The notes below the pieces were generated by a model, which saw nothing but the letters and a program-made list of their open reading frames with translations, had not been told where the DNA came from and searched no databases. Shown here one piece after another: positions 22,031 to 44,521 of a stretch of DNA of 64,000 nt. A program made the translations under genes and the position numbers. Location of the stretch: positions 868,001 through 932,000 of the forward strand of contig AP025582.1 of NCBI GenBank assembly GCA_022846075.1, in the 5' to 3' direction. This stretch comes from Oscillospiraceae bacterium. GTDB taxonomy: Bacteria > Bacillota > Clostridia > Oscillospirales > Oscillospiraceae. The first letter of the stretch is position 1. Every line of letters begins with the position of its first letter.

Positions 22031-22477
22031 GGCTTCCCCTGGGGGAAACTGTCTGCGAAGCAGACTGATGAGGGGAGCCTATTATTTCGTAAAGCCTTTT
22101 CCATGTCCGCAGTTCCCCTCATCCGTCAGCCCTTCGGGCTGCCACCTTCCCCCAGGGGGAAGGCCAAGACCAACCCTCTGTCAAGCACACATCAGCGGCC
22201 GAGCGGCGCAAGGGGGACCACGTGTCGCACAGACGCTCCTGTGCTTTTCCCCCAAACAACGGGCCGTAAACCTGCTGCTGAAAAGGGAATCTGCGACCAG
22301 GTCAGCACCAAAAGACTTTTCTTGGAGAGGCTGAGAGGCCATTCTTTTCTATTTAGAACCCCTTAGCGATTGCGAAGCATGAGCCTAGGGGTCCTTAATG
22401 CCGAAACCGCTTACGGTTTCGACGGAAAAGAATAACCTCTCAGAACCACGCACGTCCCGATGTGCAATCAGTGAACG
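22031..22477. repeat. Dispersed two-part intergenic repeat, copy 1
   Basis: Module A (22031-22168) is an inverted repeat: GGCTTCCCCTGGGGGAA at one end, CCTTCCCCCAGGGGGAAGG at the other, and GACTGATGAGGGGA facing TTCCCCTCATCCGTC inside. Module B (~22170-22477) begins near CTGTCAAGCACAC and ends GTCCCGATGTGCAATCAGTG; it is shared with copies at 37793 and 44142. Near its right end arms CTGAGAGG..ATTCTTTTC (22331-22349) and GAAAAGAAT..CCTCTCAG (22425-22443) enclose about 75 nt of copy-specific sequence. No frame is conserved among copies. The rest of the 21936-22553 gap holds nothing I recognise. Confidence 0.85.
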
Positions 22478-22553
22478 CTAAAACGAAACGCCGCCCCCAA
22501 GAACACAGCCCCGCCCGGCACAGCCGCCACACGATCCCCTAACAGACAGACAA

Positions 22554-22587
22554 AGAACGCCCCGGCGGTGATCCGCCGGGGCGTTCT
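22554..22587 (-). terminator. Terminator of the XpaC-like gene
   Basis: A 15-bp stem AGAACGCCCCGGCGG/CCGCCGGGGCGTTCT with a TGAT loop, followed by TTTG on the minus strand. Confidence 0.85.
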
Positions 22588-22597
22588 GCGCACTCAT

Positions 22598-23830
22598 TTA
22601 CATGGTCATGCCGGTCCCCAGCCCATCCTTGTCCAGCATCCGCTCCAGCACCGCCACGTCGGTGGCAATGTCCATGGCATCGGACTGGAAGAGCTGGTCG
22701 AGCTGCTTTTCGAAGCCTTCCACGACTTTATCCATCATGTTTTCGATGCGGGCCTTGGCGGCGGTGATGTTCTCGCCCTCCACCCCCTGGGCGTCCAGCT
22801 GGGCGTAAGTCTTAAGGAGCTTGAGGGTGGTGGGAAGATAGTAGTTCAAAAACTGCCGCAGCTGGCCGGCCTTGGCGGGGTTCTGACGCTGATAGTCCAG
22901 GATCTTACCGGTGATCTCCCCAACCCGGTCGATCTTCCGGCTCATCTCCTCGCCGGGGATGGCGTCGTTAATCTCCTTGATCTGGCGGAGAATGTCGTCG
23001 TCGCTGTCCGCGGGCCTCTCCGGTTCCGGCTCCGGCTGGGGGGCGGCGGGCCGCTCGTAGCCCTGGTCGGTGAGGACCAGCCGGCCGGTGGCCCGGTCGA
23101 TATAGCCCATGGGGAGGATGCCGTCGGAGAGCATCTTTTGAAGGTCGGAGATACATTTGCGCTCCGAGACCCCGGCGGCACCCGCCAGGTCGGAGATGAA
23201 GATGGAGGTGCGCTGGCCGATGGCCCCCAGGTAGAGCCGCTGGCGGCGGGCCCGGCGGGTCATGGAGATGCCGGTGCCCGTCATGAAGAGGCTGGCGCAG
23301 AGGAAGCCGAACACGGTGAAAAAGCCCACGATGGCCCCGCCGCTCACGAAGCCGGTGCCGAAGGCCACCCCCATGGCGGCGATAAAAAAGGACAGGGAAC
23401 AAATGGCGCCGAAAATGGTGAGTAAGGTGCCCCCCATAGGCTTTTTGCCCCGGTGGACGGGACGGGGGGCCTGCTGATAGACCCGGCCCGGATCCCTGGC
23501 CTGCCGCTGCTGGCCGGTCCCCTGGCCCTGGCGGGGCTGGGCGGTGCCGGTGCCCGAGCGGACGTCCCCCGGGGGAACGGCCCCCGCCTGAAAGGAGGAG
23601 GCGGTGGGCGGGGTCTGCCGCCGCTGCTGCTGGCCCGCGGAGCCACTGGGGGCGTATGGACCGGCGCCGGTGGAGGTCCGGCCGCTCTGGAAATCCTGTT
23701 TGATCTTATCCGTGGGGATCTGGACGCCCCCCAGGTTCATGAAAAGAAGGACCATGCCGATGGGCCAAAAGAAGATGAAGCCCAGCACAATGACCCACCA
23801 GGGGATGTTGGAATTTTGCTTATTTGACAT
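22598..23830 (-). CDS. XpaC-like (5-bromo-4-chloroindolyl phosphate hydrolysis family) membrane protein
   Basis: 410 residues. One hydrophobic segment near residues 10-30, a Gln/Pro/Gly-rich linker to about residue 128, two more membrane segments (~132-190), then a soluble helical domain rich in Asp, Arg and Leu ending in AVLERMLDKDGLGTGMTM. The C-terminal part matches XpaC-type proteins, which often sit beside TelA-like toxic-anion resistance genes; no telA is visible here. The biochemical role is unclear despite the old assay-based name. The ATG follows GGGAGG. It is monocistronic with a good promoter. Confidence 0.82.
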   Translation of the reverse strand: MSNKQNSNIPWWVIVLGFIFFWPIGMVLLFMNLGGVQIPTDKIKQDFQSGRTSTGAGPYAPSGSAGQQQRRQTPPTASSFQAGAVPPGDVRSGTGTAQPRQGQGTGQQRQARDPGRVYQQAPRPVHRGKKPMGGTLLTIFGAICSLSFFIAAMGVAFGTGFVSGGAIVGFFTVFGFLCASLFMTGTGISMTRRARRQRLYLGAIGQRTSIFISDLAGAAGVSERKCISDLQKMLSDGILPMGYIDRATGRLVLTDQGYERPAAPQPEPEPERPADSDDDILRQIKEINDAIPGEEMSRKIDRVGEITGKILDYQRQNPAKAGQLRQFLNYYLPTTLKLLKTYAQLDAQGVEGENITAAKARIENMMDKVVEGFEKQLDQLFQSDAMDIATDVAVLERMLDKDGLGTGMTM

Positions 23831-23871
23831 GCTGCGCCTCCCAAAACATCATACTTTCACATTTACTACAT

Positions 23872-23900
23872 ATCATACAACGATTTCAAGCCTTTGTAAA
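23872..23900 (-). promoter_or_regulatory. Promoter of the XpaC-like gene
   Basis: Minus-strand TTTACA (23895-23900), 17-bp spacer, TATGAT (23872-23877). Confidence 0.75.
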
Positions 23901-23942
23901 GCGGAAACAGGAGAGGCAGAGGCCGTATGTAACCGTTCTGTT

Positions 23943-23972
23943 ATTGCTTTTTGAGTAAAAAACACATATAAT
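23943..23972 (+). promoter_or_regulatory. Possible promoter of the VanW gene
   Basis: TTGCTT (23943-23948) and TATAAT (23967-23972) with an 18-bp spacer. The -35 is weak. A short CACCT/AGGTG hairpin lies in the leader. Confidence 0.5.
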
Positions 23973-24029
23973 CAAACCATATATTGTGTGTCGCACCTTA
24001 CAGGTGTGTAGTTATGGAGTGATGTTGGA

Positions 24030-25952
24030 ATGGGAGAGAAAGAGACAGGCAAGCGGGTGGCCCCCGGTTCCGCCGGGGGGAAAAAGCTGGCCCTTGTGAT
24101 CGCCGCCTTTGCGGTGGGCGTCCTGGCCGTGGCCTATGTCGGCCTGTGCGCCTTCGCCAGCGGGGCCAAGCTGTGGCCCCATACCTCCGTGCTGGGGGTG
24201 GACGTGTCCGGGCTGACCTACGCCCAGGCGGAGGAGAAGCTGACCGCGGAGCTTCCGCTGAAGTGGGTGGGCAAGACCGTGGAGCTCTATGAGCCCCAGA
24301 GCGGGACGCGGCTGGAGCTGGACGCGGAAGGGCTGATGGAGCCCAGCGACCTGGCCGAGTCGCTGACCCACGTCAACGACAGGGGGAATTTTCTCACCAA
24401 CGGCGGACGCTATGTGGCGGCGCTGTTTTCCCGGGGGAACGCGGACTTTGGACCCTCCCTGCGGTATACCGAGGCGGGCCAGAAGCGGATGGACGACACC
24501 CTGGCGGAGCTGACAAGGGAGCTGGGCATCGACGGGAACGAGACCACCTATGAGGTCACCGATGAGGCCATCCTATTTGAAAAGGGCGTCACCGGGACCG
24601 CGGTGGACGCCGACGCCGTCCGCACCGGGGTCACAGCCGCCCTTATCGGCACGGGGCCGGAAACGGTGAACATCTCCCTGGTCCAGGCGCCCCCCGCCGA
24701 GCCCGACTTCGAGGCCATCCACCGGGAGGTGTACGCCGAGGCCGCCGACGCTTATCTGGACAAGGACAGCGGGGAGATCGTCCCCTCGGTCACCGGGGCG
24801 GACTTTGACGTAGAGGCCGCCCGGGCCGCCCTGGATCAGGCCGCCGAGGGGAGCAAGTGCCGGATCCCGCTCACCCTGACCGAGCCCGGCCTCTCCACCG
24901 AGGCGCTGACCGCCAGCCTTTTCCGGGACACCTTGGGGGCCGCCGCCACCAAGTTTACCGGCACCGCGGACCGGAAGAAGAATATCGCCCTGGCCTGTTC
25001 TTTCCTCAACGGCCAGGTGGTTTTCCCCGGGGATACCTTCTCCTTCAACGCCGTGTGCAGCCCCTATTCCACCTCCAACGGCTACGGAAAGGCGGGGGCC
25101 TATGTCAACGGCAAGACGGTGGATACCACCGCGGGCGGCATCTGCCAGGCCTCCTCTACCCTCTACTGGTCCACCCTGAAGGCCAATCTGGAGACTGTGG
25201 AGCGCCACGCCCACCGCTACGAGCCCAATTATATCAAGGGCGGCCTGGACGCCACGGTCTACGGTGACGCCGGCACCTCCGGCAGCCTGGATTTCCAGTT
25301 CAAGAACAACACCGACTACCCGGTGAAGATCGAGGCCTACGTGGACAGCGACAACTATGTCCGGGTGGCCGTCTACGGCACCGACGCCACCGGCATCCAC
25401 GGGGAGCCCTACTCCACCAACCGGGTGGTCACCCAGTACGCCCAGACCACCTACGAGGCCAACCCCGCCGTCGCCCAGGGCACCACGCAGAAGGACCCCG
25501 AGCGCACCGCCTACAACGCCGTGTCCATCGAGACCTATCAGCAGTTGGTGGACGCCTCGGGGAACGTGATCTCCACCAACTATCTCTACAAGACCAACTA
25601 TAAGCTGCGTGACGCCGTCATCTTCTACAACCCCGCCGACGCGGCCCTGTGGGGGATCGACCCGGCCACGGGCCTCAAGACCCTGACGCCGGTGACACCC
25701 ACTCCGGACGTGGCGGACCCCGCCGAAAATACTGCCCCCACGGAGAGCGGTGCCCCTGTGGTGGGCGGGGACCCGGCGCAGACAAGCTCCCCGGCGGAGA
25801 CCGGAGCGGTGACGCCCCCGGTGGTGGAGAGCCGTCCCCCCGAGGAGACGGCGCAGCCGCCCGTGGAGAGCCAGGCCCCGGCGGCGGAGCCCTCCGCGGC
25901 CCCCACGCCCACCCCGGACCCGGACGCCCCCCTGCCCCCGCCGGGCGTGTGA
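24030..25952 (+). CDS. VanW-family cell-envelope protein with peptidoglycan-binding-like repeats
   Basis: 640 residues. One N-terminal transmembrane segment (~residues 20-45) anchors an extracellular protein. Two YoaR-like (PG_binding_4) modules span roughly residues 55-300, one beginning GVDVSGLTYAQAEEKL. The VanW domain (~310-470) contains FSFNAVCSPYSTSNGYGKAG and GGICQASSTLYWSTLKANL. The C-terminal ~90 residues are Pro/Thr/Glu-rich and probably thread through the wall. VanW proteins accompany wall remodelling and vancomycin clusters, but this form is a common housekeeping envelope protein, not evidence of resistance. The next gene is 27 bp downstream. Confidence 0.9.
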   Translation: MGEKETGKRVAPGSAGGKKLALVIAAFAVGVLAVAYVGLCAFASGAKLWPHTSVLGVDVSGLTYAQAEEKLTAELPLKWVGKTVELYEPQSGTRLELDAEGLMEPSDLAESLTHVNDRGNFLTNGGRYVAALFSRGNADFGPSLRYTEAGQKRMDDTLAELTRELGIDGNETTYEVTDEAILFEKGVTGTAVDADAVRTGVTAALIGTGPETVNISLVQAPPAEPDFEAIHREVYAEAADAYLDKDSGEIVPSVTGADFDVEAARAALDQAAEGSKCRIPLTLTEPGLSTEALTASLFRDTLGAAATKFTGTADRKKNIALACSFLNGQVVFPGDTFSFNAVCSPYSTSNGYGKAGAYVNGKTVDTTAGGICQASSTLYWSTLKANLETVERHAHRYEPNYIKGGLDATVYGDAGTSGSLDFQFKNNTDYPVKIEAYVDSDNYVRVAVYGTDATGIHGEPYSTNRVVTQYAQTTYEANPAVAQGTTQKDPERTAYNAVSIETYQQLVDASGNVISTNYLYKTNYKLRDAVIFYNPADAALWGIDPATGLKTLTPVTPTPDVADPAENTAPTESGAPVVGGDPAQTSSPAETGAVTPPVVESRPPEETAQPPVESQAPAAEPSAAPTPTPDPDAPLPPPGV

Positions 25953-25979
25953 GCCAGCCGCAAAAGGAGAGAGATCACC

Positions 25980-26660
25980 ATGTTTCAAGGCTTTACAAAA
26001 GAGACGGTCGACTTCATGTGGGGCATCCGCTTCAATAACGAGCGCAGCTGGTTCGAGGCCCACAAGGAGGAGTATCTCACCACGTTTTACGAGCCCATGA
26101 AGGCGCTGGCCCGGGATCTCTACGAGGGCTTTGCCGAACCCCACGAGGAGCTGGGGCTGATGTGCCGGGTCTCCCGTATCTACCGGGACGCCCGGAGGCT
26201 CCATGGACGGGGGCCTTATAAGGATCACCTCTGGCTCTCCCTGGAGCAGCCCGCGGAGGAGTGGTCCCTCCAGCCCGTGTTCTGGTTTGAGCTGGGCCCG
26301 GAGGAGTACAGCTTCGGCCTGGGCTACTGGATGGCCCGGGCGGCCACGATGGCCAAATTCCGGGCCCGGATGGACAAGGACCCCAAGACCATGGAGAAGT
26401 TCGCCCGCCAGCTCAAAAAACAGGATACATTTACCCTCAACGGGGAGGATTTCAAACGCCGGAAGGAGGCCCCCAGCGCCCTGCTGGACCCCTGGTACAA
26501 CAAAAAGGGAGGCTTCTCTCTGAGCTGTGACCGGCCCCACGACGAGCTTCTGTTTTCGCCCCAGCTTCCGGCGCATATCATTGGGGAGTGGGAGAAGCTG
26601 CTGCCCCTGTTCCGCTATATCTCCACCCTGGACGGAGACCCGGACCCCCGGCAGGCTTGA
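25980..26660 (+). CDS. DUF2461 family protein
   Basis: 226 residues. FTKETVDFMWGIRFNNERSWFEAHKEEYLTT at the N-terminus and the RIYRDARRLHGRGPYKDHLW segment near residues 65-85 are hallmarks of the DUF2461/TIGR02453 family, which has no assigned function. The protein looks soluble and has no signal peptide. AGGAGAG precedes the ATG. It may be co-transcribed with the VanW gene, 27 bp upstream. Confidence 0.85.
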   Translation: MFQGFTKETVDFMWGIRFNNERSWFEAHKEEYLTTFYEPMKALARDLYEGFAEPHEELGLMCRVSRIYRDARRLHGRGPYKDHLWLSLEQPAEEWSLQPVFWFELGPEEYSFGLGYWMARAATMAKFRARMDKDPKTMEKFARQLKKQDTFTLNGEDFKRRKEAPSALLDPWYNKKGGFSLSCDRPHDELLFSPQLPAHIIGEWEKLLPLFRYISTLDGDPDPRQA

Positions 26661-26741
26661 ACAACATTTTTTGACAGAGGAAAAGCCCGTCCCACTGCGC
26701 ATACTGTTCTTATCAATGGACAGAAAGGCGGTGGGGCGGGC

Positions 26742-27479
26742 TTGTGTTTTGACTGGAAAAAACAAGCGGTGGCGCTCCTGCTGGCCCTGACGCTCCCCTG
26801 GGCGGGGCTGGGGATGGAGCGCTGCTTTTCGCTGGATACGGTGCGGGCGGACGGGCTGGCGGAGGGGGTGGAGGAGCCCAAGCTCATCGCCCTGACCTTT
26901 GACGACGGCCCCCGGCGCTCCACCACCACAGACCTGTTGGACGGACTGGCCCGGCGGGGGGTCCACGCTACCTTTTTTCTCATCGGGGAGTTGGTTCCCG
27001 GTAATGAGGACGTGGTGCAGCGGATGGATCGAGAGGGGCACCAGATCGGCATCCATACCTACGACCACGTGAAGCTCACCGGCCTCAACGCCGCCGATTT
27101 TTCCGCCCAGGTGGACCGGACGAGGAATCTTTTGAAGGAGACCCTGGGCCACAACGACTTTATCCTCCGCCCCCCTTACGGCATGACGGACAACGGAGTG
27201 ATCAAGCGGGCGGGAAGCCCCATCATCCTGTGGTCCATCGACCCGGAGGACTGGAACGATAAAAACGTGGACCGCATTGTGGAGCACGTGGTCTCCCGGG
27301 CCTCCGACGGGGACATCATCCTGCTCCACGATATCTACCCCACCTCGGTGGAGGCCGCCCTGCGCATCGTGGACGCCCTGCACGAGAAGGGGTTTCTCTT
27401 TCTCACCATAGACGAGCTGTGTGAGGAGCGGAAGGTGACGCCCTCCTCCGGGGAGATCTGCCGGCACTTTTATCCGTGA
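26742..27479 (+). CDS. Polysaccharide deacetylase, NodB-type, secreted
   Basis: 245 residues with an N-terminal signal peptide or anchor (QAVALLLALTLPWAGLG). The NodB domain holds ALTFDDGPRRS (catalytic Asp and metal Asp), GIHTYDH (metal His pair), LRPPYG, ILWSIDPEDW and DIILLHD. These enzymes remove N-acetyl groups from peptidoglycan or chitin-like polymers outside the membrane. The TTG at 26742 is the only start that keeps the full signal; its ribosome binding site is G-rich and imperfect. It is close to other envelope genes (VanW upstream, Ig-like protein downstream). Confidence 0.88.
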   Translation: MCFDWKKQAVALLLALTLPWAGLGMERCFSLDTVRADGLAEGVEEPKLIALTFDDGPRRSTTTDLLDGLARRGVHATFFLIGELVPGNEDVVQRMDREGHQIGIHTYDHVKLTGLNAADFSAQVDRTRNLLKETLGHNDFILRPPYGMTDNGVIKRAGSPIILWSIDPEDWNDKNVDRIVEHVVSRASDGDIILLHDIYPTSVEAALRIVDALHEKGFLFLTIDELCEERKVTPSSGEICRHFYP

Positions 27480-28709: not shown

Positions 28710-28726
28710 GCTGAATAGACAAACAA

Positions 28727-30277: not shown

Positions 30278-32533
30278 CTAGAAGGGCCAGCTCTCGATCC
30301 ACTTGACTAAGGGCTCATACCAGGTGGGGATGGTCAGGCCGATGAGGACAGGGTAGAAGAGGGCGTACAGGCCTGCCGAAAGCCCCGTGAGGCCGTAGAC
30401 CGGCTTTTTCCAGTCCCCGCCCCGCTCCATCAGCCCGTTGAAGAGGTAGGAGATGGCGAAGGTGAGGAAGAGAATGGAGGGGAAATAGTGGTACTCGAAG
30501 GTGGTGCGGCCGATGAGCCACCAGGGGGCCAGCTGGGAGAGGAAGGCCACCAGGATGAAGGCGGCCTTCCCGGAATGGCCCGGGGCGGCGTACAGCAGGA
30601 GGCCGGCCAGAGCCAGATAGGCCAGGAGGCAGGCGGCCAGGATGATCCAGTTGCGGATGAGAACCTCGGGGGGCAGCTCGGCGTAGAAGACCCCGTTCTC
30701 CCCCTGCTCGGAGCGGTAGGTGAGGAGGGTGGCCGCCCCGCTCAGGGCGGCCAGGAAGGCGGCCTTGGACCACAGGCGGCGGAAGGAGTGGGCGGCGCAG
30801 ACCAGGATGGCCCCCAGCCCCGCCCAGCAGACCACGGGATTGCCGAAGGCGGCGAAGCGGGTGGTGAAGCCGGGGACAGAGTTGTCCATATAGTAGAGGA
30901 TGGGCCGGGCGTCCACGATCCACTGGAACCACCGGGAGGAATAGGGATGGGCCTGGGAGACCCCCTCGTGATAGGTGAGCATATACCACTGGTTATTGGC
31001 CATGATGCCGGTGAGGCTGTCGGTGGGGATGACGGCGGCCTTGAATTCCTCTCCCCCGGTGAGGTGGCCCCAGACGTTCTGGAAGAGAACCGGCAGGCTC
31101 TCCTTCGCCCCGGCTAGGGTGTTGGCCAGGGACAGGTCCACCCCCTTGGCCTGGGCGTAGGGGAGGTAGGAGGCGGTATAGATGGCGAAGGGGATGATGA
31201 TAAAGCACAAGACGGAGAACAGCAGGGTCTTGACGCACCAGGCGGCCAGCTCGCCCTTTTGTTCCGGGGGCCAGTCCCGGAGCTTCTGGTAAAAGCCCAT
31301 GAAGTAGACCACGGCCAGCCCCAGGGCGGCGTAGATCACCGTCCACTTGGCCGAGGCCCCCAGGCCCCACATGAGCCCGGAGAGGAAGAGGGGCAGGGCC
31401 CCCTTCTTGAAAGAAGTCCCGGCGGGGAGGGTGAGGTAGCGGTACATGAAAAAGTACATGCACAGGATGAAAAAGACCCCATAGGTGTCGATGGTGGCGA
31501 TGCGGGTCTGGGTCAGGTGCATGAAGTCGAAGGCGAAGAGGGCGGTGCCGCAGGCGGCCACCGGGGTCTTGCCGAAGAGGTTTTTCAGGAACAGGTAGAG
31601 GATGGGGAGCATCAACACCCCGAAGAGGGTGCCCATGAACCGCCAGCCGAAGGGGGTCATGCCGAAGAGGCGGATACCCAGGCCCAAAATCAGCTTGCCC
31701 AGGGGCGGGTGGGTCACCTCGTAGGGGTAGACCCCGTCGATGTGCTCCTTGGCGGTGCGGGCGTGGTAGATCTCGTCAAAGTAGGTGGAGTTGTGCCACG
31801 TGGACTTGGCGGGCACCGTGGCGTCCACCGAGAAGAGGTCCCGGACCTCCGGAGCGGCGGCGGAGCCGTCGGCCAGGGCCCAGTTGAAGGGGACCGGGCG
31901 GCCGCTTTGGTCCAAAAGGCAGAATTTGGACAGCTGGAGGTTGGCCTTCTCCGCCTTTCCGGTGATTCGAATAAAGCGGACGTTTTGGGGATTTTCTACG
32001 GTGACGTCAATCCACTTGTACAGCTGGTTGTACTTCTGGGTCAGGGCGTAGCTGGGGTCATAGCCCTCGGCGTTGGCCCAGTACCAGCCGGTGACCTTGT
32101 CCGGGTCGGCCCCATCCTCCCTGCGCTGCCACAGGGTGGACCAGTGGCCGCCGTCGGCGGAGATCTCCACGTTGTAGGCCCCCGTGCCCAGGCCGGAGTA
32201 ATAGCGGATGCCGGCGGCGTACACCGGGTCGCCCATGATCTCGATGGTGAGGGGGGCACCCCCAGCGAACTCATAGACGCTCTGGGGGGCGGTGGTGTCC
32301 CCCAGTTGGAAGAAGGCGGTGGCGGCGTAGGCCAGGGTGATGAGCAGGAGGGGCAGCCGGTCCTTCCGCTCCATGGGGTGGCACCTTCCGGCAAAGGTGA
32401 GCCGGCAGGGCTGGGCGGCCTTCTCCGCCGGGGCCAGGCCGCCCCGGACCCCCCGGACGTAACGCAGGAGGAAGAGAAAGACGCAGCCCAGGACGGCCAG
32501 GGCAAACAGGATGGAGGGGGTGATGTATCTCAT
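30278..32533 (-). CDS. PMT-family membrane glycosyltransferase
   Basis: 751 residues with about a dozen hydrophobic segments. The first large loop contains DEIYHARTAKEHIDG and THPPLGK, where the DE pair is the catalytic acid site of dolichyl-phosphate-mannose protein mannosyltransferases. Such enzymes transfer sugar from a polyprenyl-phosphate carrier to proteins or glycans outside the membrane. Unusually, an extra ~130-residue soluble insertion (about residues 70-200) before that loop carries a beta-sandwich-like, carbohydrate-binding-looking segment. The ATG at 32533 starts MRYITPS. The gene downstream (PHP) is 231 bp away. Confidence 0.87.
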   Translation of the reverse strand: MRYITPSILFALAVLGCVFLFLLRYVRGVRGGLAPAEKAAQPCRLTFAGRCHPMERKDRLPLLLITLAYAATAFFQLGDTTAPQSVYEFAGGAPLTIEIMGDPVYAAGIRYYSGLGTGAYNVEISADGGHWSTLWQRREDGADPDKVTGWYWANAEGYDPSYALTQKYNQLYKWIDVTVENPQNVRFIRITGKAEKANLQLSKFCLLDQSGRPVPFNWALADGSAAAPEVRDLFSVDATVPAKSTWHNSTYFDEIYHARTAKEHIDGVYPYEVTHPPLGKLILGLGIRLFGMTPFGWRFMGTLFGVLMLPILYLFLKNLFGKTPVAACGTALFAFDFMHLTQTRIATIDTYGVFFILCMYFFMYRYLTLPAGTSFKKGALPLFLSGLMWGLGASAKWTVIYAALGLAVVYFMGFYQKLRDWPPEQKGELAAWCVKTLLFSVLCFIIIPFAIYTASYLPYAQAKGVDLSLANTLAGAKESLPVLFQNVWGHLTGGEEFKAAVIPTDSLTGIMANNQWYMLTYHEGVSQAHPYSSRWFQWIVDARPILYYMDNSVPGFTTRFAAFGNPVVCWAGLGAILVCAAHSFRRLWSKAAFLAALSGAATLLTYRSEQGENGVFYAELPPEVLIRNWIILAACLLAYLALAGLLLYAAPGHSGKAAFILVAFLSQLAPWWLIGRTTFEYHYFPSILFLTFAISYLFNGLMERGGDWKKPVYGLTGLSAGLYALFYPVLIGLTIPTWYEPLVKWIESWPF

Positions 32534-35684: not shown

Positions 35685-35744
35685 ATAAATTCCTCCAATA
35701 ACAAAGTAAATTGTTTTATACAAAAGTAAATGGAAATCGAAAGG

Positions 35745-35880
35745 TTCCCCTCATCCGTCACAGCTTCGCTGTGCCACCTTCCCCTGGGGTCCGGCGGGCC
35801 TTAGCGATCGCTCAGGGCTGTTTGACGCACACCAAAGTCGTTGAAGCTGTCAGCCGCGGGCTGACTGATGAGGGGAGCCT
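35745..35880. repeat. Rearranged partial copy of repeat module A inside the heat-shock operon
   Basis: The ends AGGTTCCCCTCATCCGTCA (35742-35760) and TGACTGATGAGGGGAGCCT (35862-35880) are inverted and match at 17 of 19 positions. They equal the inner arms of module A in the three full copies, here turned outward. TGCCACCTTCCCCTGGGG lies inside. It fills most of the grpE-dnaK spacer. Confidence 0.75.
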
Positions 35881-35892
35881 TCCGGCGGGAGA

Positions 35893-36459
35893 TCAGTTGG
35901 CCACCTTCACCATGGCGAAGCGGATCACCTTTTCGCCCAGGGTGAACCCGGCCTGAAAGACGTCCACGATCACGTTTTCGCCGTACTCCTCATCCTCCAC
36001 GTGCATCACGGCGTTGTGGAAGGTGGGGTCGAAGCTCTGTCCCAGGGCGGGGATCTCCTGGACCCCCAGGGACTCCAGCGCCTTTTTCAGGCCGGTCATG
36101 GTCATCTCCACGCCCTTGGCGTAGGCCTCGTCACGGGTGTCCTGCTTCAATGCCCGCTCCAGATTGTCGTAGACGGGGAGGAGGGCCTTCACCGCGTCGG
36201 CCTTGGCGTCCGAGTAGATGGCCTCTTTTTCCTTCTGGCTGCGTCGGCGGAAGTTGTCGTACTCGGCGGCCAGCCGGAGAAATTTGTCCTCCTGGTCGGC
36301 CAGATTGGCTTTCAGGGTCTCCAGCTCCTCCAGCAGGGGATCGGGCCCTTCGGCGCCGGGGGTATCGGCCTGGATCTCGGCCTCAGGAGTCTGGACGGCC
36401 TCGTCCACGGTCTGGTCCCCGGCCTCGGGGGCCTGCTTTTTGTTCTCTTTCTTACTCAA
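35893..36459 (-). CDS. grpE: Nucleotide exchange factor GrpE
   Basis: 188 residues. An acidic, Gln/Ala-rich N-terminus is followed by a coiled coil (LLEELETLKANLADQEDKFLRLAAEYDNFRRR) and the beta domain with LESLGVQEIPALGQSFDPTFHNAVMHVEDEE. GrpE releases ADP from DnaK and serves as a thermosensor in some bacteria. It follows hrcA by 37 bp. GGAGGG precedes the ATG. Confidence 0.96.
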   Translation of the reverse strand: MSKKENKKQAPEAGDQTVDEAVQTPEAEIQADTPGAEGPDPLLEELETLKANLADQEDKFLRLAAEYDNFRRRSQKEKEAIYSDAKADAVKALLPVYDNLERALKQDTRDEAYAKGVEMTMTGLKKALESLGVQEIPALGQSFDPTFHNAVMHVEDEEYGENVIVDVFQAGFTLGEKVIRFAMVKVAN

Positions 36460-36496: not shown

Positions 36497-37558
36497 TCAC
36501 TGTTCCGGGTCGCCGGGGGGAAGCCCGCCCTGGCCAATGAGCCAGGTCAGCCCTCTGGCGAAATAGGACAGCCGCGCGGAGATTTTGGCGTAATCCATCC
36601 GGGTGGGGCCCACCACGCCGATCAGGCCCTTCATCCCGTCGCCCAGGTCATAGCTTGCCATGACCACGCTGGAATCTTTCAGCGCCTCGGCCACGTTCTC
36701 CGGGCCGATGACGATATCGGTGGGGCTGCCAGGGTCGACCCGGATGGGGAAGGGGCCGAACTCCTCGTCGGAAAGGAAACTCATCAAGGGCTGGGCCTTT
36801 TCCAGGCTTTGGTACTCCGGGTGCTCCAGCAGGTTGGCGATGCCCGCGGTGTGGACCGGCCGCTTGGTCAGCTCGTCCAGGACCTCGGCTCCAAAGCGGA
36901 CCACCAGCTCGATGAGGTCGTAGGCCTCACGCGTGGCGTGGCGGGCCACCCGGGCCAGCTCGGGGGTGAGCTCGGAGAGGGTCAGGCCGGTGAAACCGGT
37001 GTTCAGAAGGGTGCCCAGCATTTGGAGCTGGGATTCGCTCAGGTCCTCCGAGAGCCGGAAGAGCTTGTTGCGCACCACGTTGGAATCGGTCATCACCACC
37101 GCGATGAAAGCGTTTTGCTCCACCAGCAGCAGATCGAAGCGCCGGATGGTCATTTTCTCCGGCCCGGTAGCCAGGGCGAAAGCGGGGTACTGGGTGAGCT
37201 TGGCCACCACCCGGCCCGCCTCGTCGATGACCCGGTCCAGGGCCTTCATTTTCAGGTGGAGGGCCTCGTTGATCCGCTGGGTCTCCTGGATGGAGAGCTT
37301 ATAGTCTCCCATCAACTCATTGACGTAGAGCCGGTAGCCCTTGGGGGAGGGCACCCGTCCGGCGGAGGTGTGGGGCTGCTCCAGGTAGCCCTGCTCCTCC
37401 AGATCGGCCATCTCATTGCGGATGGTGGCCGAGGACACGTCCAGCCGGGCCCATTCGGCCACCGCCTTGGAGCCCACCGGCTCGGCGTTCTGGACGTAGC
37501 TTTCGATGACGGCCCGGAGGATTTTCTTTTTTCGTTCACTTAAGTCCAAGCCGCTCAC
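36497..37558 (-). CDS. hrcA: Heat-inducible transcription repressor HrcA
   Basis: 353 residues. A winged-helix N-terminus (SERKKKILRAVIESYVQNAEPVGS, then SSATIRNEMADLEEQGYLEQPHTSAGRVPSPKGYRLYV) precedes a GAF-like domain. HrcA binds CIRCE and represses chaperone genes until GroEL becomes limiting. The start is uncertain: the GTG at 37558 has no ribosome binding site; a TTG at 37549 has GGGGTGA about 5 nt upstream and may be the true start. It is the first gene of hrcA-grpE-dnaK-dnaJ. Confidence 0.95.
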   Translation of the reverse strand: MSGLDLSERKKKILRAVIESYVQNAEPVGSKAVAEWARLDVSSATIRNEMADLEEQGYLEQPHTSAGRVPSPKGYRLYVNELMGDYKLSIQETQRINEALHLKMKALDRVIDEAGRVVAKLTQYPAFALATGPEKMTIRRFDLLLVEQNAFIAVVMTDSNVVRNKLFRLSEDLSESQLQMLGTLLNTGFTGLTLSELTPELARVARHATREAYDLIELVVRFGAEVLDELTKRPVHTAGIANLLEHPEYQSLEKAQPLMSFLSDEEFGPFPIRVDPGSPTDIVIGPENVAEALKDSSVVMASYDLGDGMKGLIGVVGPTRMDYAKISARLSYFARGLTWLIGQGGLPPGDPEQ

Positions 37559-37792: not shown

Positions 37793-38240
37793 GGCTTCCC
37801 CTGGGGGAAGCTGTCGAGCGCAGCGAGACTGATGAGGGGAACTTGTCGTTTAGCAGGGCCTTTCCCATGTCCGCAGTTCCCCTCATCCGTCAGCCCTCCG
37901 GGCTGCCACCTTCCCCCGAGGGGAAGGCCAAGGACCAACCATCTGTCAAGCACACGTCAGCGGCCGAGCGGCGCGAGAGGGACCGCGTGTCGCACAGACG
38001 CTCCCGTGCGTATACCCCTATCAACGGGCAGTAGACCTTCTACGAAAAAGGGAGTCTGCGAGCAGGTTTGCACTAAAAGACTTTTCTTTGGGGGTCTGGG
38101 GCCGCAGCGTTAAGAAAATGTGCCTGTGGCACATTTTTAGCGAAGGCTGGCCGGCTATGCCGGCCAGGTCACCCTTTCCTGAGACCGAAAAGAAATGTCC
38201 CTCAGATTTCCCCACATCCCGACGTGCAGTCAGCCAAAAA
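37793..38240. repeat. Dispersed two-part intergenic repeat, copy 2
   Basis: It has the same modules as copies 1 and 3: GGCTTCCCCTGGGGGAAGC ... GACTGATGAGGGGAAC ... TTCCCCTCATCCGTC ... CCTTCCCC-C-GAGGGGAAGG, then GTCAAGCACACGTCAGCGGC and the end GACGTGCAGTCAGCCAAAA. The right arm GAAAAGAAATGTCCCTCAG (38187-38205) is kept, but the matching left arm is replaced by unrelated sequence containing smaller hairpins (GTGCCTGTGGCAC; GGCTGGCCGGC..GCCGGCC). It lies between the MATE stop codon and its terminator, so it should be transcribed. Confidence 0.85.
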
Positions 38241-38270: not shown

Positions 38271-39647
38271 TCACGCCGCGGTTACATCCCGGATCCACGC
38301 TCCCGACTTCAGCCGGGCCATCCCGAAGAAAAACTTCACCACGTTCTCCAGAGAGATGCACAGGTACACCACCAGGATGCCCCAGTGGAACACCAGCCCG
38401 GCCAGGGCGGCCAAGGGGATGGACACGAACCACAGGGGGCTCAGGTCGATGATGGAGGCGGTGCGCACGTCCCCGCCGCCCCGGAGCACCCCCACCGTGT
38501 TGGTGGAGTTAAAGGAGCGCAGAGACAGGAAGGAGAAGGTGACCACCGACATCATGGTGGCGATGGAGGAGGCCTCCGGCGACAGGTGGAACATGGGGTA
38601 GAGCACCGGACTGAAGAAGGTGAAGGTCAGGGCAATCAATACCAGTCCCACGATCAGCCCGGCAAGAAAGGCCAGGGTGTCCAAGGTGAGGCCTACCTCA
38701 TACACCGTGTCCCGCCGCCCCGCGCCGATCTCCCGGCCCACGATGATGGCGGCGGTGCCGGCAATGGCAAAGACCACCACCGTGGCCACCTTCTCAATGT
38801 TGCCCGAGATGCCGAAGGCCGCCAGGATGGCTTGTGAGCCCTCCATGTGGCCCATGATGGTGGGGTAGATGGCAGTGCCCAGGCCCCAGAGGGTCTCGTT
38901 GAGCACCACGGGGGTGGCGTAGCGGAAGTACCGGGAGAGCATCTCCCCGCCGGGGCGGAAAAGCTGGCTGGGCTTGACCCGGAAGCTCTTGTTGAGGCAG
39001 ATATGGCCCACGGCGATGGCGCACTCCAGCATCCGGGAAATGAGGGTAGCCAGGGCGGCCCCCTGTACCCCCATGGCGGGGGCCCCCAGCTTGCCGAAGA
39101 TGAACACCCAGTTGAGGAAGGTGTTGCTCACCATGGACACCACCAGGATGTACAGACCCAGCTTGGGGTTGGCCATGCTGCGGTGGGCGGCGATGTACAC
39201 CTGGGCCAGGCCGTCGAAGAAGAAGGAGAAGGCCACCATCCGGGCGTACTCGGCGGCCAGGGCGATGACCCCGGCGTCGCTGCCGAAGAGGCCCATGAAC
39301 TGGACCGGGAAGAAGCACATAATACAGCCGAAAATCAGGTTCACGGCGCCGGAGACGTAAAAGCCGATGCCCATGACCCGGCTGATGGCGTCGTAGTCCC
39401 CCTTGCCGTAAAACTGGCTGATGAGCACCGACGCCCCCGACTGCATCCCAAAGACCATCAGCAGCACCACGAAAATGGGGATGTTGGCCAGGGTGACAGC
39501 GGCCATGGGGGCCTCCCCCAGCATACCCACCATGAAGGTGTCCAGCAGGCCCAGGGAGTTGGTGATCAGATTTTGCAGGATGATGGGGATGGCCAGGGTC
39601 ACGACGTCCTTGTAAAAGGCCTTGCCCCTCCTCATGTAAGAAAACAA
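38271..39647 (-). CDS. MATE-family efflux transporter
   Basis: 458 residues, about twelve membrane segments. VTLAIPIILQNLITNSLGLLDTFMVG at the start and the PMAAVTLAN and second-half ATPVVLNETLWGLG repeats are typical of MATE exporters (NorM/DinF types), which expel organic cations and drugs in exchange for Na or H. The TTG at 39647 is preferred, with AGGAGG 7 nt upstream; an ATG at 39635 is 19 nt from it. It follows the cysteine desulfurase gene by 36 bp and probably shares its promoter. Confidence 0.92.
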   Translation of the reverse strand: MFSYMRRGKAFYKDVVTLAIPIILQNLITNSLGLLDTFMVGMLGEAPMAAVTLANIPIFVVLLMVFGMQSGASVLISQFYGKGDYDAISRVMGIGFYVSGAVNLIFGCIMCFFPVQFMGLFGSDAGVIALAAEYARMVAFSFFFDGLAQVYIAAHRSMANPKLGLYILVVSMVSNTFLNWVFIFGKLGAPAMGVQGAALATLISRMLECAIAVGHICLNKSFRVKPSQLFRPGGEMLSRYFRYATPVVLNETLWGLGTAIYPTIMGHMEGSQAILAAFGISGNIEKVATVVVFAIAGTAAIIVGREIGAGRRDTVYEVGLTLDTLAFLAGLIVGLVLIALTFTFFSPVLYPMFHLSPEASSIATMMSVVTFSFLSLRSFNSTNTVGVLRGGGDVRTASIIDLSPLWFVSIPLAALAGLVFHWGILVVYLCISLENVVKFFFGMARLKSGAWIRDVTAA

Positions 39648-39683
39648 CCAATTACCTCCTTACCTCGTGCGGTGTCCCGCCCG

Positions 39684-40814
39684 TCAAAAAAGCAGCGTCT
39701 TGTTTTTACAGATATGCTCCAGCAGCCCCGCCAGGGTGTCCACCTCTTCCCGGGTGGACTCCGGCCCGAAGGAGACCCGCAGGGCCCCCAGCTTTACCTT
39801 GGGGTTCAGCGGCATGGCGGCGAACACGTGGCTGGGCTTGCCCCGGTGGCAGGCCGAGCCGGAGGAGACGTACACCCCCTGGCTCCCCAGGGCCTCCACC
39901 AGGGATTGGCCGGAGAAGGCGGGCAGGGAGATGGGCAGGATGTGGGGGGCGTCCCCCTTGTCGATGAGCTCTACGCCGTCGATGGCGGAGAACCTTTCCG
40001 CGGCGTAGTCCTTCACACCCCGGATGGCCTCGGAGGTGCCGGGGGTCCATGCCGCCACGGCGGCGGCGAAGGCGGCGATCTGGGCGGTGGGCTCGGTGCC
40101 GGGCCGCAGGCCTCGCTCTTGGCCGCCCCCCAGCAGGAGGGGCTTCACCTTGGGAATGAGCTCCTTTTTGATGAAAAGCCCGCCGATGCCCTTGGGGGCC
40201 CGGACCTTGTGGCCGCAGATGGTGACGAGGTCCGCCCCCAGCTCCCTGGGGGTGAAGGGCACCTTCAAAAAGCCCTGGACGGCGTCGGTGTGCAGAAGGG
40301 CGGGGGAGCCCGCGGCCCGGATGGCGTCCGCGGCGGCCCGGACGGGCAGGAGGGAGCCCACCTCGTTATTGACCAGCATCATGGACACCAGGATGGTGTC
40401 GGGCCGGACAGCCTCCGCCACGGCCTGGGGGTCGATGCGGCCGGTCTTGTCCGGCTTTAGAAAGGTGACCTCGAAGCCCTTGGCCTGGAGGGCCTTCATG
40501 GGCTCCAGCACGGCGGAGTGCTCGATGGCGGTGGTGACCACGTGGTTCCCCTTCCGCCGGTTCAGCTCCACGGCGGCGGAGATGGCCCAGTTGTCCCCCT
40601 CGGTGCCGCAGGAGGTGAAGAAGAGCTCCTCCGGCAGACACCCCAGGGCCCCGGCCACCACGGCCCGGTCGGCCTCCCGCCGCTGGGCGGCGGCCTTCCC
40701 CAGGGGATAGACCGAGGAGGGGTTGCCCCAGCCCTCCGTCATGGCCTCCACCGCGGCCTGGGCGGCGGCGGCGCACACGGGGGTGGTGGCGGCGTGATCC
40801 AGATAGACGGCCAT
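39684..40814 (-). CDS. Cysteine desulfurase, NifS/IscS-like
   Basis: 376 residues. It opens VYLDHAATTPV, the family hallmark. Further motifs are FTSCGTEGDNWAI, VTTAIEHSAVLEP, HTDAVQGFLKVP, the PLP-lysine segment TICGHKVRAPKG and SSGSACHRGKPSHV with the active Cys. It takes sulfur from cysteine for Fe-S clusters, tRNA thiolation or cofactors. No IscU or ThiI gene is adjacent, so a tRNA or special role is possible. The ATG at 40814 follows AAGGAG; a nearby out-of-frame ATG is ignored. Confidence 0.93.
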   Translation of the reverse strand: MAVYLDHAATTPVCAAAAQAAVEAMTEGWGNPSSVYPLGKAAAQRREADRAVVAGALGCLPEELFFTSCGTEGDNWAISAAVELNRRKGNHVVTTAIEHSAVLEPMKALQAKGFEVTFLKPDKTGRIDPQAVAEAVRPDTILVSMMLVNNEVGSLLPVRAAADAIRAAGSPALLHTDAVQGFLKVPFTPRELGADLVTICGHKVRAPKGIGGLFIKKELIPKVKPLLLGGGQERGLRPGTEPTAQIAAFAAAVAAWTPGTSEAIRGVKDYAAERFSAIDGVELIDKGDAPHILPISLPAFSGQSLVEALGSQGVYVSSGSACHRGKPSHVFAAMPLNPKVKLGALRVSFGPESTREEVDTLAGLLEHICKNKTLLF

Positions 40815-40867
40815 GGGAGCATCTCCTTTACCTTGAAGCATCTTTAATATTATGAAGCAGCTTAACC

Positions 40868-40896
40868 ATTTTAAGGCGAAGATTGGGGAAAGTCAA
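40868..40896 (-). promoter_or_regulatory. Promoter of the cysteine desulfurase-MATE unit
   Basis: Minus-strand TTGACT (40891-40896), 17-bp spacer, TAAAAT (40868-40873). Confidence 0.8.
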
Positions 40897-40912
40897 GAGG
40901 CGGAAGGGCCGT

Positions 40913-40941
40913 TTGCCAAATGCCCGCCCAGCGGTTATAAT
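40913..40941 (+). promoter_or_regulatory. Promoter of the AAA+ ATPase gene
   Basis: TTGCCA (40913-40918), 17-bp spacer, TATAAT (40936-40941). Confidence 0.83.
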
Positions 40942-40971
40942 GGAACTACTTTGAATCAGAGGTGACCACCC

Positions 40972-42441
40972 ATGAAAACACCCCTCTCCCCGATGGAGGT
41001 CCACAAGCAGTATGAGGAGGGCGTCTCTACCTTCGTCCATACCGTGCCCGACGCCGCCCTCCGGGTCCGGCTCACCCATGAGCTGGACGCCTTCTTCCAA
41101 TCCTGCGCCCTGGGGACCTGGAAGGCCGACGGGGCCGCCCTGACCCCCGGCTACGTGGAGTACTACAACGCCATTTACCTGCGGGGCAACCCGGCGCCCT
41201 CCATCCTCTATTGGGAGCTGAATACCAGCGTGGCGGCCTATCCCGGCTTCAAGACCCCGGACTTTTTCGGCCGGATGCGGGCCTGGGACAAGGTGGCGGG
41301 CACCGGCCTGGCCCGGCGGTTCGTGGACCTCTTCACCCTGATGGCCCTCCTCTTCGCCGCCGTGGACGGGGTGGTCAGCGAGGGGGAGGCCGGCTTCGTC
41401 AACCGCTGTGCCGACGCCCTGTCCGCCCTGTGCGATAAGGACGGCCTGGAGGGGGGCAAGGCCCCCCTGGACGCCAAGGACTTCGTCACCTCTCGCCCCG
41501 CCCCCGCGGCCCCCGCCCCGGCGGAGGAGGCCCAGGAGGAAGCGGAGAAAAAGGAGCCGGAGCCCACCCTGGAGGAGCTGATGGCCCAGCTGGACGAGCT
41601 GTGCGGGCTGGACAAGGTGAAGGCCGACGTGAAGAGCCTCGTCAACCTGGTGAAGGTACGCCGCCTGCGGGAGGGGGAGGGCCTTCCCGTGCCGCCCCTG
41701 TCCCTCCACCTGGTGTTCCTGGGCAACCCCGGCACCGGCAAGACCACTGTGGCCCGTCTGCTGGCCAAGCTCTACCACGCCATCGGCGTTTTGTCCAAGG
41801 GCCAGCTGGTGGAGGTGGACCGCTCCGGGCTGGTGGCGGGCTTCGTGGGCCAGACCGCCCTCAAGACCCAGGAGGTGGTCACCAAGGCCATCGGCGGCGT
41901 GCTCTTCATCGACGAGGCCTACGCCCTCACCAGCCACACCGGTCAGAACGACTTCGGCCAGGAGGCGGTGGAGGTGCTGCTGAAGAACATGGAGGACCAC
42001 CGGGACGACCTCATCGTTATCGTGGCGGGCTACACAGACCTGATGGGGGAGTTCATCCACTCCAACCCCGGCCTGGAGAGCCGCTTCAACAAATACTTCT
42101 ATTTCGACGACTACGACGGCGGCCAGCTGTATCAAATTTTCCAGTCCATGTGCGAAAAGAACGGCTACACCCTGGACGAGGCCGCCGGGGCCTACGCCAA
42201 GGACTTTCTGGACGAGATGTACGAAAACCGGGACGAGAACTTCGGCAACGCCCGGGACGTGCGCAACTTCTTCGAGCGGGCGGTCTCCTGCCAGTCCGAC
42301 CGGGTGGCGGGGCTGGAGACGGTGGACAAGGCCGCCCTCATGGCCCTCACCCAGGCCGACCTGAAGCGGGCCGCGGGGGACGAGGAGGAGCCGGAATCCC
42401 CTGCGGCCCAGGAGGGGCAACCCCCGGTTGACAAGGTGTAA
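40972..42441 (+). CDS. CbbX/SpoVK-like AAA+ ATPase with a TerB-like N-terminal domain
   Basis: 489 residues. The N-terminal ~150 residues include LFTLMALLFAAVDGVVSEGE, which resembles the acidic-helix pattern of TerB-like domains. After an Ala/Pro/Glu-rich linker (~170-195) comes an AAA+ module: GLDKVKADVKSLVNLVKVRRLR, Walker A GNPGTGKTT (~residue 252), pore loop GFVGQT, Walker B VLFIDEAYAL and sensor/Arg-finger region LESRFNKYFYFDDY. The closest relatives are hexameric remodellers such as CbbX and SpoVK. The client is unknown. GAGGTG precedes the ATG. Single gene, divergent from the desulfurase. Confidence 0.87.
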   Translation: MKTPLSPMEVHKQYEEGVSTFVHTVPDAALRVRLTHELDAFFQSCALGTWKADGAALTPGYVEYYNAIYLRGNPAPSILYWELNTSVAAYPGFKTPDFFGRMRAWDKVAGTGLARRFVDLFTLMALLFAAVDGVVSEGEAGFVNRCADALSALCDKDGLEGGKAPLDAKDFVTSRPAPAAPAPAEEAQEEAEKKEPEPTLEELMAQLDELCGLDKVKADVKSLVNLVKVRRLREGEGLPVPPLSLHLVFLGNPGTGKTTVARLLAKLYHAIGVLSKGQLVEVDRSGLVAGFVGQTALKTQEVVTKAIGGVLFIDEAYALTSHTGQNDFGQEAVEVLLKNMEDHRDDLIVIVAGYTDLMGEFIHSNPGLESRFNKYFYFDDYDGGQLYQIFQSMCEKNGYTLDEAAGAYAKDFLDEMYENRDENFGNARDVRNFFERAVSCQSDRVAGLETVDKAALMALTQADLKRAAGDEEEPESPAAQEGQPPVDKV

Positions 42442-42452
42442 GGCCCCAGGCG

Positions 42453-42482
42453 TTGACAATCCACCCGCCCTGCCGCTATGCT
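42453..42482 (+). promoter_or_regulatory. Promoter of the membrane-anchored XRE regulator
   Basis: TTGACA (42453-42458), 18-bp spacer, TATGCT (42477-42482), just after the ATPase stop codon. Confidence 0.72.
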
Positions 42483-42507
42483 GAAAGCGGAAAAGGAGGC
42501 GAAGACC

Positions 42508-43251
42508 ATGACGTTAGGACAGCGCATCCAGGCCCACCGCACGGCGCTGGATCTCTCCCAGGAGGCACTGGGGGAAAAGCTGGGGGTCTCCCGGCAGGCG
42601 GTCTCCAAGTGGGAGGCCGACGGGGCGGTGCCCGACACCGACAAATTGATCGCCCTATCCAAGCTCTTCGGCGTCAGCCTCAACGAGCTGCTCCAGGTGG
42701 AGGAGCCGCCCCGGACCGGGGAGGCGGACCCGGCGGAGCCGAAGAAAAAGCCGGGAAAGTCCCGGCTGCTCCCCGTCCTCGCCCTGCTGGCCCTCGTGCT
42801 GGGCTGCGGGGCCTACACCATCTCCATGGGGCGCAGCTACGGGCGGCTCCAGGGCGAGCTGACCCGGCTGGAAGGCCGGGTGGCCGAGCTGGAGCGCGGC
42901 GCCTCCGGCCTGGACCCCGCCGCGCCCCTGGTGGCCTCCTACGACTATGAGGTGTCCCGGCTGGGGGAGTATGTCACCTTTACCGTGGTCCTGACGGCCG
43001 CCCAGCAGGTGGAGGGAATGACCGTCTCCGTCCAGGGCTCGGGGACGGGCGGCCAGGCCAAGACGGTACAGGCCAAGCGCCAGGGGGAGGGGAGCGCCTA
43101 CTCCGCCACCCTGTCGGTCCCCTTCGGCTCCTCCGGGGCCACCCTCACCGCCGTTTTTGAGGCGGGCGGCCGGACCTATACCCAAGCCCTGGTTCGGGTG
43201 AGCAACGTGTGGGACAACAGCTGGAACTGGGAGGATCTGCTGGGGGCGTGA
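42508..43251 (+). CDS. Membrane-anchored XRE-family regulator
   Basis: 247 residues. The N-terminal HTH (residues 1-62: LDLSQEALGEKLGVSRQAV, then SKWEADGAVPDTDKLIALSKLFGVSLNELL) is followed by a Lys/Pro linker, one transmembrane helix (~residues 85-105), a short coiled coil (LQGELTRLEGRVAELE) and an extracellular beta-rich domain of about 120 residues. This topology suggests an outside signal acting directly on a DNA-binding domain. The ATG at 42508 follows AAAGGAGG; an upstream frame extension lies before the transcription start. It ends 2 bp from the convergent pentapeptide gene. Confidence 0.86.
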   Translation: MTLGQRIQAHRTALDLSQEALGEKLGVSRQAVSKWEADGAVPDTDKLIALSKLFGVSLNELLQVEEPPRTGEADPAEPKKKPGKSRLLPVLALLALVLGCGAYTISMGRSYGRLQGELTRLEGRVAELERGASGLDPAAPLVASYDYEVSRLGEYVTFTVVLTAAQQVEGMTVSVQGSGTGGQAKTVQAKRQGEGSAYSATLSVPFGSSGATLTAVFEAGGRTYTQALVRVSNVWDNSWNWEDLLGA

Positions 43252-43253
43252 GG

Positions 43254-43859
43254 TCACAGCGTGACCTTGACCCCCAGGAGCTTGATGAGGTCGATGGCCT
43301 GGTGGGCGCCGATGGTGAGCCCCCGCAGCTCGGAGAGGGATTCGGAGACCGTGAGCCCCTCGATGCCGCAGGTAGAGAAGTCCAGCCCGGACAGGGGCGT
43401 GTGGAAGAAGCTGACGCCAGAGAGGTCGACCCCCTCCGCCGTCAGCTTTTTCAGCTTGCAGCCCGTCCAGAAGGACTCCCGCAGCACGCAGTCCTTGAGG
43501 GCACAGCCGTCCCACATGGACTGGGCGCAGTTGGCGTAGCGCAGGGAGGTGTCCGCCAGGGCGCAGCCCCGCCAGTGGCTCTCCCGGAGGTCGGCCCCGT
43601 CCCCCTTGCAGCCGGTGAGGGCGCAGTCCTTCCAGCGGGTGCCCAGAAAGGAGCAGTTGGAGAAGTCGCAGTCCTCGAAGCGGACCTGATAAAAGGAGGA
43701 GCCGGCGAAGAGGCACTTGACGAACCGGCACTTTTGGAAGGTGACGGCGGTCCAGTCCAGGCCGGTCAGGTCGGCGTTTTCCAGGACCTCGTTTTGGAAG
43801 ATTTGATCGTCGATGCTGTCGTCCTCTTCCCGGGCGGCGGACAGGGCTTGGTGAAGCAT
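43254..43859 (-). CDS. Pentapeptide-repeat protein
   Basis: 201 residues. From about residue 28 to 165 it repeats with five-residue periodicity: ENADLTGLDW, FQKCRFVKCLF, FEDCDFSNCSF, CALTGCKGDGADLRES and similar, often with Phe or Leu at the centre and Cys at the edge. This predicts a right-handed quadrilateral beta helix. Such proteins include Qnr/MfpA DNA mimics that protect gyrase and many of unknown role. The Cys richness is notable. It has its own promoter and no obvious partner gene. Confidence 0.85.
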   Translation of the reverse strand: MLHQALSAAREEDDSIDDQIFQNEVLENADLTGLDWTAVTFQKCRFVKCLFAGSSFYQVRFEDCDFSNCSFLGTRWKDCALTGCKGDGADLRESHWRGCALADTSLRYANCAQSMWDGCALKDCVLRESFWTGCKLKKLTAEGVDLSGVSFFHTPLSGLDFSTCGIEGLTVSESLSELRGLTIGAHQAIDLIKLLGVKVTL

Positions 43860-43890
43860 GGTATCGTCTCCTTGGGTGGTTGTGGGGTCT

Positions 43891-43919
43891 AGTATAACAC
43901 AGGTTTGCCCGCCTTGGAA
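43891..43919 (-). promoter_or_regulatory. Promoter of the pentapeptide-repeat gene
   Basis: Minus-strand TTCCAA (43914-43919), 17-bp spacer, TATACT (43891-43896). Confidence 0.65.
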
Positions 43920-43920
43920 G

Positions 43921-44141
43921 ACGGTCCCCCTGGCTGTGCTCTACTGAAAGAGAGACCCGACCGGCATAGCCGGGCGGCCTATGCTACAGTTCCGATTCTC
44001 TCTCCCCAAAGACCCCCTCTCAACGACCAGCCAAGGGGGCTCCGGCCCCCTTGTTTGGATTCATCCCCCAAGCTGTCCACAGGAATACAGGAAAACCCCG
44101 TGGCCGCACTTTGTAGCAGCTACGGGGTTCGGTGGATCTTA
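43921..44141. other. Intergenic DNA without a supported gene
   Basis: 221 bp between the pentapeptide promoter and repeat copy 3. The only clear structure is a hairpin GGGGGC-TCCG-GCCCCC (44035-44050) followed by TTGTTTGG, which looks like a weak plus-strand terminator. No open frame has a ribosome binding site and plausible composition. Confidence 0.5.
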
Positions 44142-44521
44142 GGCTTCCCCTGGGGGAAGCTGTCGAGCGCAGCGAGACTGATGAGGGGAACTTATCGCTT
44201 TTGTAGAGCCTTTCCCGTTATCCCCAGTTCCCCTCATCCGTCAGCCCTCCGGGCTGCCACCTTCCCCCATGGGGAAGGCTAAAGACCACCTTCTGTCAAG
44301 CACACGCCAGCGGCCGAGCGGCGCAAGAGGGACCATGTGTCGCACAGATGCTCCCGTGCTTTTCCCCCAAACAACGAGCAGTAGACCTTCTACTAAAAAG
44401 GGAAACTGCGCCCAGGTTAGCACCAGAGACTTTTCTTTGGGGTTCTAAGGGACGTTTCTTTTCCTCGGGAAAAGAAACGTCCCTTAGAAAGACGCACGTC
44501 CCGACATGCAATCAGTCAAAA
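44142..44521. repeat. Dispersed two-part intergenic repeat, copy 3
   Basis: The cleanest copy. Module A (44142-44281) has both inverted arms and the GAGCGCAGCGA bulge. Module B (~44285-44521) has GTCAAGCACACGCCAGCGGC, GGACCATGTGTCGCACAGATG, CAGTAGACCTTCTACTAAAA, and ends ACGTCCCGACATGCAATCAG-TCAAAA. Its right part is a nearly perfect 19-bp hairpin CTAAGGGACGTTTCTTTTC / GAAAAGAAACGTCCCTTAG (44445-44487) with a tiny loop, the position at which copies 1 and 2 carry extra sequence. It lies downstream of gapA, just after its terminator. Confidence 0.87.

Follow-up and report, generated by a model that had tools for sequence, protein, structure and literature searches.

The DNA studied here, referred to as the window, is a stretch of 64,000 nucleotides (nt) from an Oscillospiraceae bacterium (assembly GCA_022846075.1, contig AP025582.1, positions 868,001 to 932,000 of the forward strand). 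Between its genes lie three full copies of a large repeat, and all six genes that flank these copies have Pfam matches (Table 1). The copies can be aligned with each other and their similarity is far above the chance level, the other two copies being matched in a sequence search at E = 1.3e-93 and 4.1e-92. A preliminary description of this DNA had given their coordinates and intergenic location correctly. It had also proposed that the repeat might be a non-autonomous mobile element or a structured RNA spread by one, and the results below favor the former.

The whole genome of this gut-type bacterium (G000), a single contig of 3,230,334 bases (3.23 Mb), contains at least 45 copies of the repeat, including the three in the window. 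A first search based on the copies themselves returned at least about 40 full or partial places, the window's three included. The figure of 45 is made up of 43 copies in which the core of module B could be aligned and two that were found with a relative's element as the query, i.e., one full copy (near 2654976) and one truncated copy (near 2799005). Because the searches scored the best 40 of 114 and the best 40 of 51 candidates, this figure is a lower bound; counts of modules and junctions rest on the 43 copies, and counts of orientation on all 45. Pairwise identity between module B copies had a median of 82%, with a range of 69-94% (900 pairs). None of the 45 copies lay inside a called gene, the gene finder having been started from seven genes with Pfam matches plus a DnaJ gene confirmed by Pfam, although three copy ends reached 3 to 34 nt into a gene model.

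When full, the element is a mosaic of about 600-700 nt, built from exchangeable hairpin modules in a near-fixed order: a left arm (P or Q), a palindrome (A or A2), the B core, a long hairpin, and an end hairpin. The preliminary description had defined a two-part unit of module A followed by module B. Both modules are indeed present, but they form only the right part of the larger mosaic, and its boundaries were drawn too narrowly: in 24 of 43 copies module A has arm P to its left, and copy 3 extends left to about position 43946. The order A-B is usual without being fixed, since in a BLAST test A was assigned in 34 of the 43 copies, the other palindrome, A2, in three, and neither in six, some of which show an A2-like palindrome by eye. 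Module B, which had been described as non-palindromic, contains in copy 3 both a long hairpin and a short end hairpin. The left part of the element varies between copies, its arms finishing in hairpins rather than in ragged truncations (by eye), and the right end lies within 60 nt of a gene edge in 33 of 44 copies. The right tail is recurrent, with 10 of 43 right junctions falling within three mismatches of CAATCAAACGGAA, when 0.4 would be expected. In being non-coding, of high copy number and different in its presence between genomes, the element has that set of features in common with miniature inverted-repeat transposable elements (MITEs).

The contig begins with dnaA, dnaN, a RecF-like gene and gyrB. 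GC skew was positive in all 11 stretches sampled up to 1.6 Mb and negative in seven of nine from 1.7 Mb onward, while being close to zero in two stretches near the origin; we set the terminus at 1.65 Mb. By this division, 35 of the 45 copies point with the replication fork (16/20 and 19/25 on the two sides of the terminus; Fisher p = 2.8e-4, a value that assumes independent copies and whose significance may be overstated by their clustering along the chromosome). Between co-directional genes the element was sense in 14 cases and antisense in 16, and fork-directed copies made up 15 of the 16 antisense and 9 of the 14 sense cases. The even division, together with the fork direction of most antisense copies, indicates that the polarity does not derive from gene orientation, and a cis-regulatory leader was rejected on the same even orientation. 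A stretch of 0.95 Mb that surrounds the terminus (1.14-2.09 Mb) was free of copies (p = 2e-7, the limits of the stretch having been set post hoc). Genes transcribed against the fork were overrepresented beside copies relative to a background sample, with 35 leading and 54 lagging (54/89) vs 112 leading and 68 lagging (68/180).

A similarity search of this genome and its relatives, as the preliminary description had recommended, gave matches at E 0.001 or better in 11 of 16 genomes of the genus, this one included. The versions in relatives are divergent and share a core of about 36 nt; two congeneric genomes, G005 and G011, have many matches, both assemblies being incomplete. Five of the 16 genomes had no match, among them the closest relative (G010), some of these assemblies being incomplete. 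Seven of eight stretches with the core pattern in database records came from metagenome assemblies labeled Oscillospiraceae, Pseudoflavonifractor or Eubacteriales; the eighth (Amnibacterium) was taken as chance, as nothing beyond the pattern aligned. The motif that precedes the long hairpin had 38 matches in this genome and a single two-mismatch match in each of five of the 294 other genomes of the order, and is thus essentially confined to this genome among the 295. An origin from phage was rejected, because the exact core pattern did not occur in viral contigs.

Comparison of empty sites, also suggested earlier, revealed corresponding intergenic regions in relatives that lack the element. 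In the closest relative three of these regions measured at most 29-93 nt, as against 613-718 nt here, and the hrcA-MatE region about 213 nt vs 713 nt; these lengths in the relative run between the ends of protein matches, except for hrcA-MatE, which was taken from a gene model. The short element-free regions make the copies look like insertions. Arm P had no match in the approximately 0.4 Mb of the closest relative that was probed. An early hint that several places were shared between species, which would have implied orthologous fixed sites, fell in a nearest-neighbor test covering 31 of 34 segments (three from this genome itself being left out): both flanking genes were shared in two of the 31, in both cases with the element in opposite orientation, and one flank in six, two of them weak. 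In some relatives, the intergenic regions at loci L098, L100 and L102 seem to hold two back-to-back elements, the sequence upstream resembling, on our reading, the reversed element of genome G012.

The explanation that we favor, with a probability of about 0.6, is that the repeat is a selfish, non-autonomous mosaic DNA element of the BIME, BOX or REPIN kind, spread with replication forks by a trans-acting enzyme that has either escaped our searches or been lost. Its mobile nature is supported by the lack of copies within called genes and by their absence from the corresponding intergenic regions of relatives. In such a scheme, small hairpin elements would insert into one another, so that modules accumulate. 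Next, the composite would be duplicated or mobilized at the forks, in the simplest case as single-stranded DNA from one template strand; the enzyme, acting in trans, may since have disappeared or may belong to a different type. Selection would purge copies from genes and promoters, and species-specific bursts would leave copies that are alike within a genome, with species sharing only the short core. In PMC5371812, IS608-type elements are described as moving as single-stranded DNA, with an orientation that follows replication, whereas Tn7 and several other insertion sequence (IS) families acquire a fork-related orientation via the sliding clamp. The hairpin arms of the present element favor the first route over the second.

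Several observations weigh against this explanation. Because fork orientation also arises via the sliding clamp, the polarity is no proof of single-strand movement. IS608 and Tn7 are both described as favoring termination sites (PMC5371812), whereas the terminus is avoided here, which argues against either type of route. Models for IscB (RRXRR), the TnpB C-terminal domain (PF07282) and Y1 (PF01797) had no match in this genome, and no element motif lay less than 1.5 kb from its one reverse transcriptase match. Among 43 right and 17 left junctions there was by eye no consistent left inverse that would represent terminal inverted repeats, and 17 copies showed no flanking repeat of constant length, although the approximate junctions weaken this test for target duplication. 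With 69-94% identity between copies there is no sign of recent movement. Finally, the empty sites belong to another species, where the precise junctions cannot be seen and where any individual site may have lost its copy. Nor did the junctions compared share a constant sequence of the kind seen in IS200/IS605. Elsewhere in the genus, PF01797 had some match in eight of 16 genomes, the RRXRR match was limited to the closest relative, itself without the element, and a loose core search near IscB, TnpB and Y1 matches gave partial look-alikes but no element. As candidate partners, an RNA-guided nuclease transposon and a reverse transcriptase were therefore rejected. A more far-reaching version, in which hairpin modules would assemble on one template strand at the fork into a new kind of mobile mosaic that spreads in fixed polarity with no known single-strand transposase, maps fork direction and head-on gene boundaries and possibly provides polar fork or topology sites, strikes us as unlikely. 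Within 1.5 kb of four of the 43 copies (182511, 767476, 1112647 and 1140283), on the element's strand, there are frames that end with a helix-turn-helix-like YLLG motif, whereas the window and a background sample of 160 kb had none; a similar frame also precedes the G012 site (by eye).

The element works in much the manner of BOX, BIME and REPIN repeats, although we do not claim membership in any of these families. In PMC3049150, BOX (boxA-boxB-boxC), RUP and SPRITE of streptococci are described as modular folded composites, mostly intergenic, that can be nested within each other and whose strand distribution, 60.8-63.3% leading, reflects the bias of coding sequences. Compared by organization rather than by sequence, the present element resembles BOX in its modular order with optional inner modules, its folding, its mostly intergenic location and its restriction to a lineage, but it is longer, its fork orientation is not explained by genes, and neither terminal inverted repeats nor an IS partner were found. 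BIMEs are likewise described as composites of palindromic units in extragenic space (PMC3049150), but here most hairpins are unlike one another in sequence and stand in near-fixed order, and a 46-nt unit of module A recurs inverted. The inverted pair of short palindromic units in module A recalls REPINs, for which single-strand-like mobility has been proposed (PMC3116915); however, this genome has no match to Y1 (RAYT), and the composite is longer, with half of it not being an inverted doublet. With IS200/IS605 elements it shares end hairpins and a replication-following orientation, a trait also of Tn7 and other IS, but it differs in the lack of a TnpA or TnpB match or a constant junction sequence and in avoiding the terminus. 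Palindrome-associated derivatives of IS200/IS605 elements are known as PATEs.

Among the alternatives, it seems improbable that the copies are structured non-coding RNA genes, or cis-acting RNA elements retained for function at gene ends. Strong folding would fit such a role, but the two strands fold equally well (z -9.4 and -9.6). In the long hairpin both sides vary yet pairing is kept (for example columns 164-190, where 29 copies show three Watson-Crick types), and two of its outer pairs are often G-U (17 and 10 of 29 copies). The core is kept across species, and in the relatives' version (24 sequences) 19 of 63 predicted pairs have double changes, under a structure predicted from that alignment itself. 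When three module alignments were folded with G-U disallowed, however, G-U and A-C mispairs were about equally common (10/8, 5/5 and 3/4), although this fold omits the outer long-hairpin pairs where G-U is common, and those G-U may derive from one source copy. The even sense and antisense orientation and the lack of a match in the closest relative also speak against this alternative. At gathering score Rfam gave nothing for the window and no match to the element, the HEARO/IscB omegaRNA family included; a search of 12 loci (copies, relatives and neighborhoods) gave only an unrelated T-box; permissive searches yielded nothing above the families' gathering scores. A known RNA family was thus rejected, and the idea of a structured RNA spread by a mobile element drew no support from Rfam, gene orientation, strand folding or mispairs. 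While the strand tests do not support an RNA role, the element may nevertheless have one, given the paired double changes in relatives. The T-box leader (L036 1068-1289) closely follows the copy at 30491 on its downstream side.

It is somewhat less probable still that the copies are polar sites kept on the chromosome to serve replication, segregation or supercoiling, in functional analogy to repeats linked with gyrase or partition. The fork orientation, the copy-free terminus region and the excess of head-on genes among the neighbors would all suit such sites, but five of the 16 congeneric genomes gave no match, spacing is clustered, modules are highly variable, and the origin-side clustering may mirror the tolerance of those regions. 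Spread of a retro type, in which a fork-primed reverse transcriptase would copy element RNA into the chromosome as in a bacterial SINE, is very unlikely. Lagging-strand priming would suit the fork orientation, and a right end near gene edges with a variable left part is consistent with it; however, RVT_1 was matched in only seven of the 16 congeneric genomes, and not in the match-rich but incomplete assemblies G005 and G011, no copy lies near the reverse transcriptase match of the genome studied, and the left arms are not raggedly truncated. An assembly artefact, which the earlier description had considered, can practically be discarded, since the copies lie in one contig with their own flanking genes and mutual differences, related families occur in other assemblies, and no point was found in its favor.

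Table 1. Positions of the repeat copies and associated features in the window
Feature	Position	Strand	Description
Copy 1	22031-22477	+	Module A 22031-22179; module B 22180-22477, with its own enlarged hairpin loop
Genes beside copy 1			ABC2_membrane_5 gene (21276-21890, +); Halogen_Hydrol gene (22598-23830, -)
Lone A-type palindrome	35744-35893 (approx.)	.	Between dnaK and grpE; hairpin insert at center
Copy 2	37793-38240	+	Module A 37793-37944; B core 37945-38105; hairpin-loop insert C2 38102-38183; end hairpin region 38186-38240
Genes beside copy 2			hrcA (36497-37558, -); MatE gene (38271-39635, -)
Copy 3, left arm	43946-44141	+	Reversed C2 piece 43946-43986; P-arm hairpins 43988-44141; overlooked earlier
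Copy 3, module A	44142-44294	+	Imperfect palindrome with 46-nt units inside in inverted order
Copy 3, module B	44295-44521	+	Core 44295-44432; long hairpin 44443-44489; end hairpin 44494-44509; tail to 44521
Terminator-like hairpin	44523-44565	-	Of the GAPDH gene (44579-45598, -); adjoins 3' end of copy 3

These results add a large and abundant mosaic repeat family in a genus of the Oscillospiraceae. In one open-licence library we found no paper linking interspersed repeats with Pseudoflavonifractor, and no mention of Oscillospiraceae among the matches listed for MITEs or intergenic repeats. Because sister species carry related families and other species have no match, gain and loss can be traced; the fork-aligned, gene-independent orientation and the avoidance of the terminus, a pattern unlike that described for IS608 and Tn7, make the spread of partnerless palindromic repeats directly testable.

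Two other kinds of repetition were seen in the window. Several diverged copies of a coding stretch of about 1.2 kb occupy positions 40-10952, one pair being 88-95% identical. The last 65 nt of the gene at 52903-54351 (54287-54351) recur 229 nt further on at 54516-54580 with 92% identity, resembling a duplicated C terminus.
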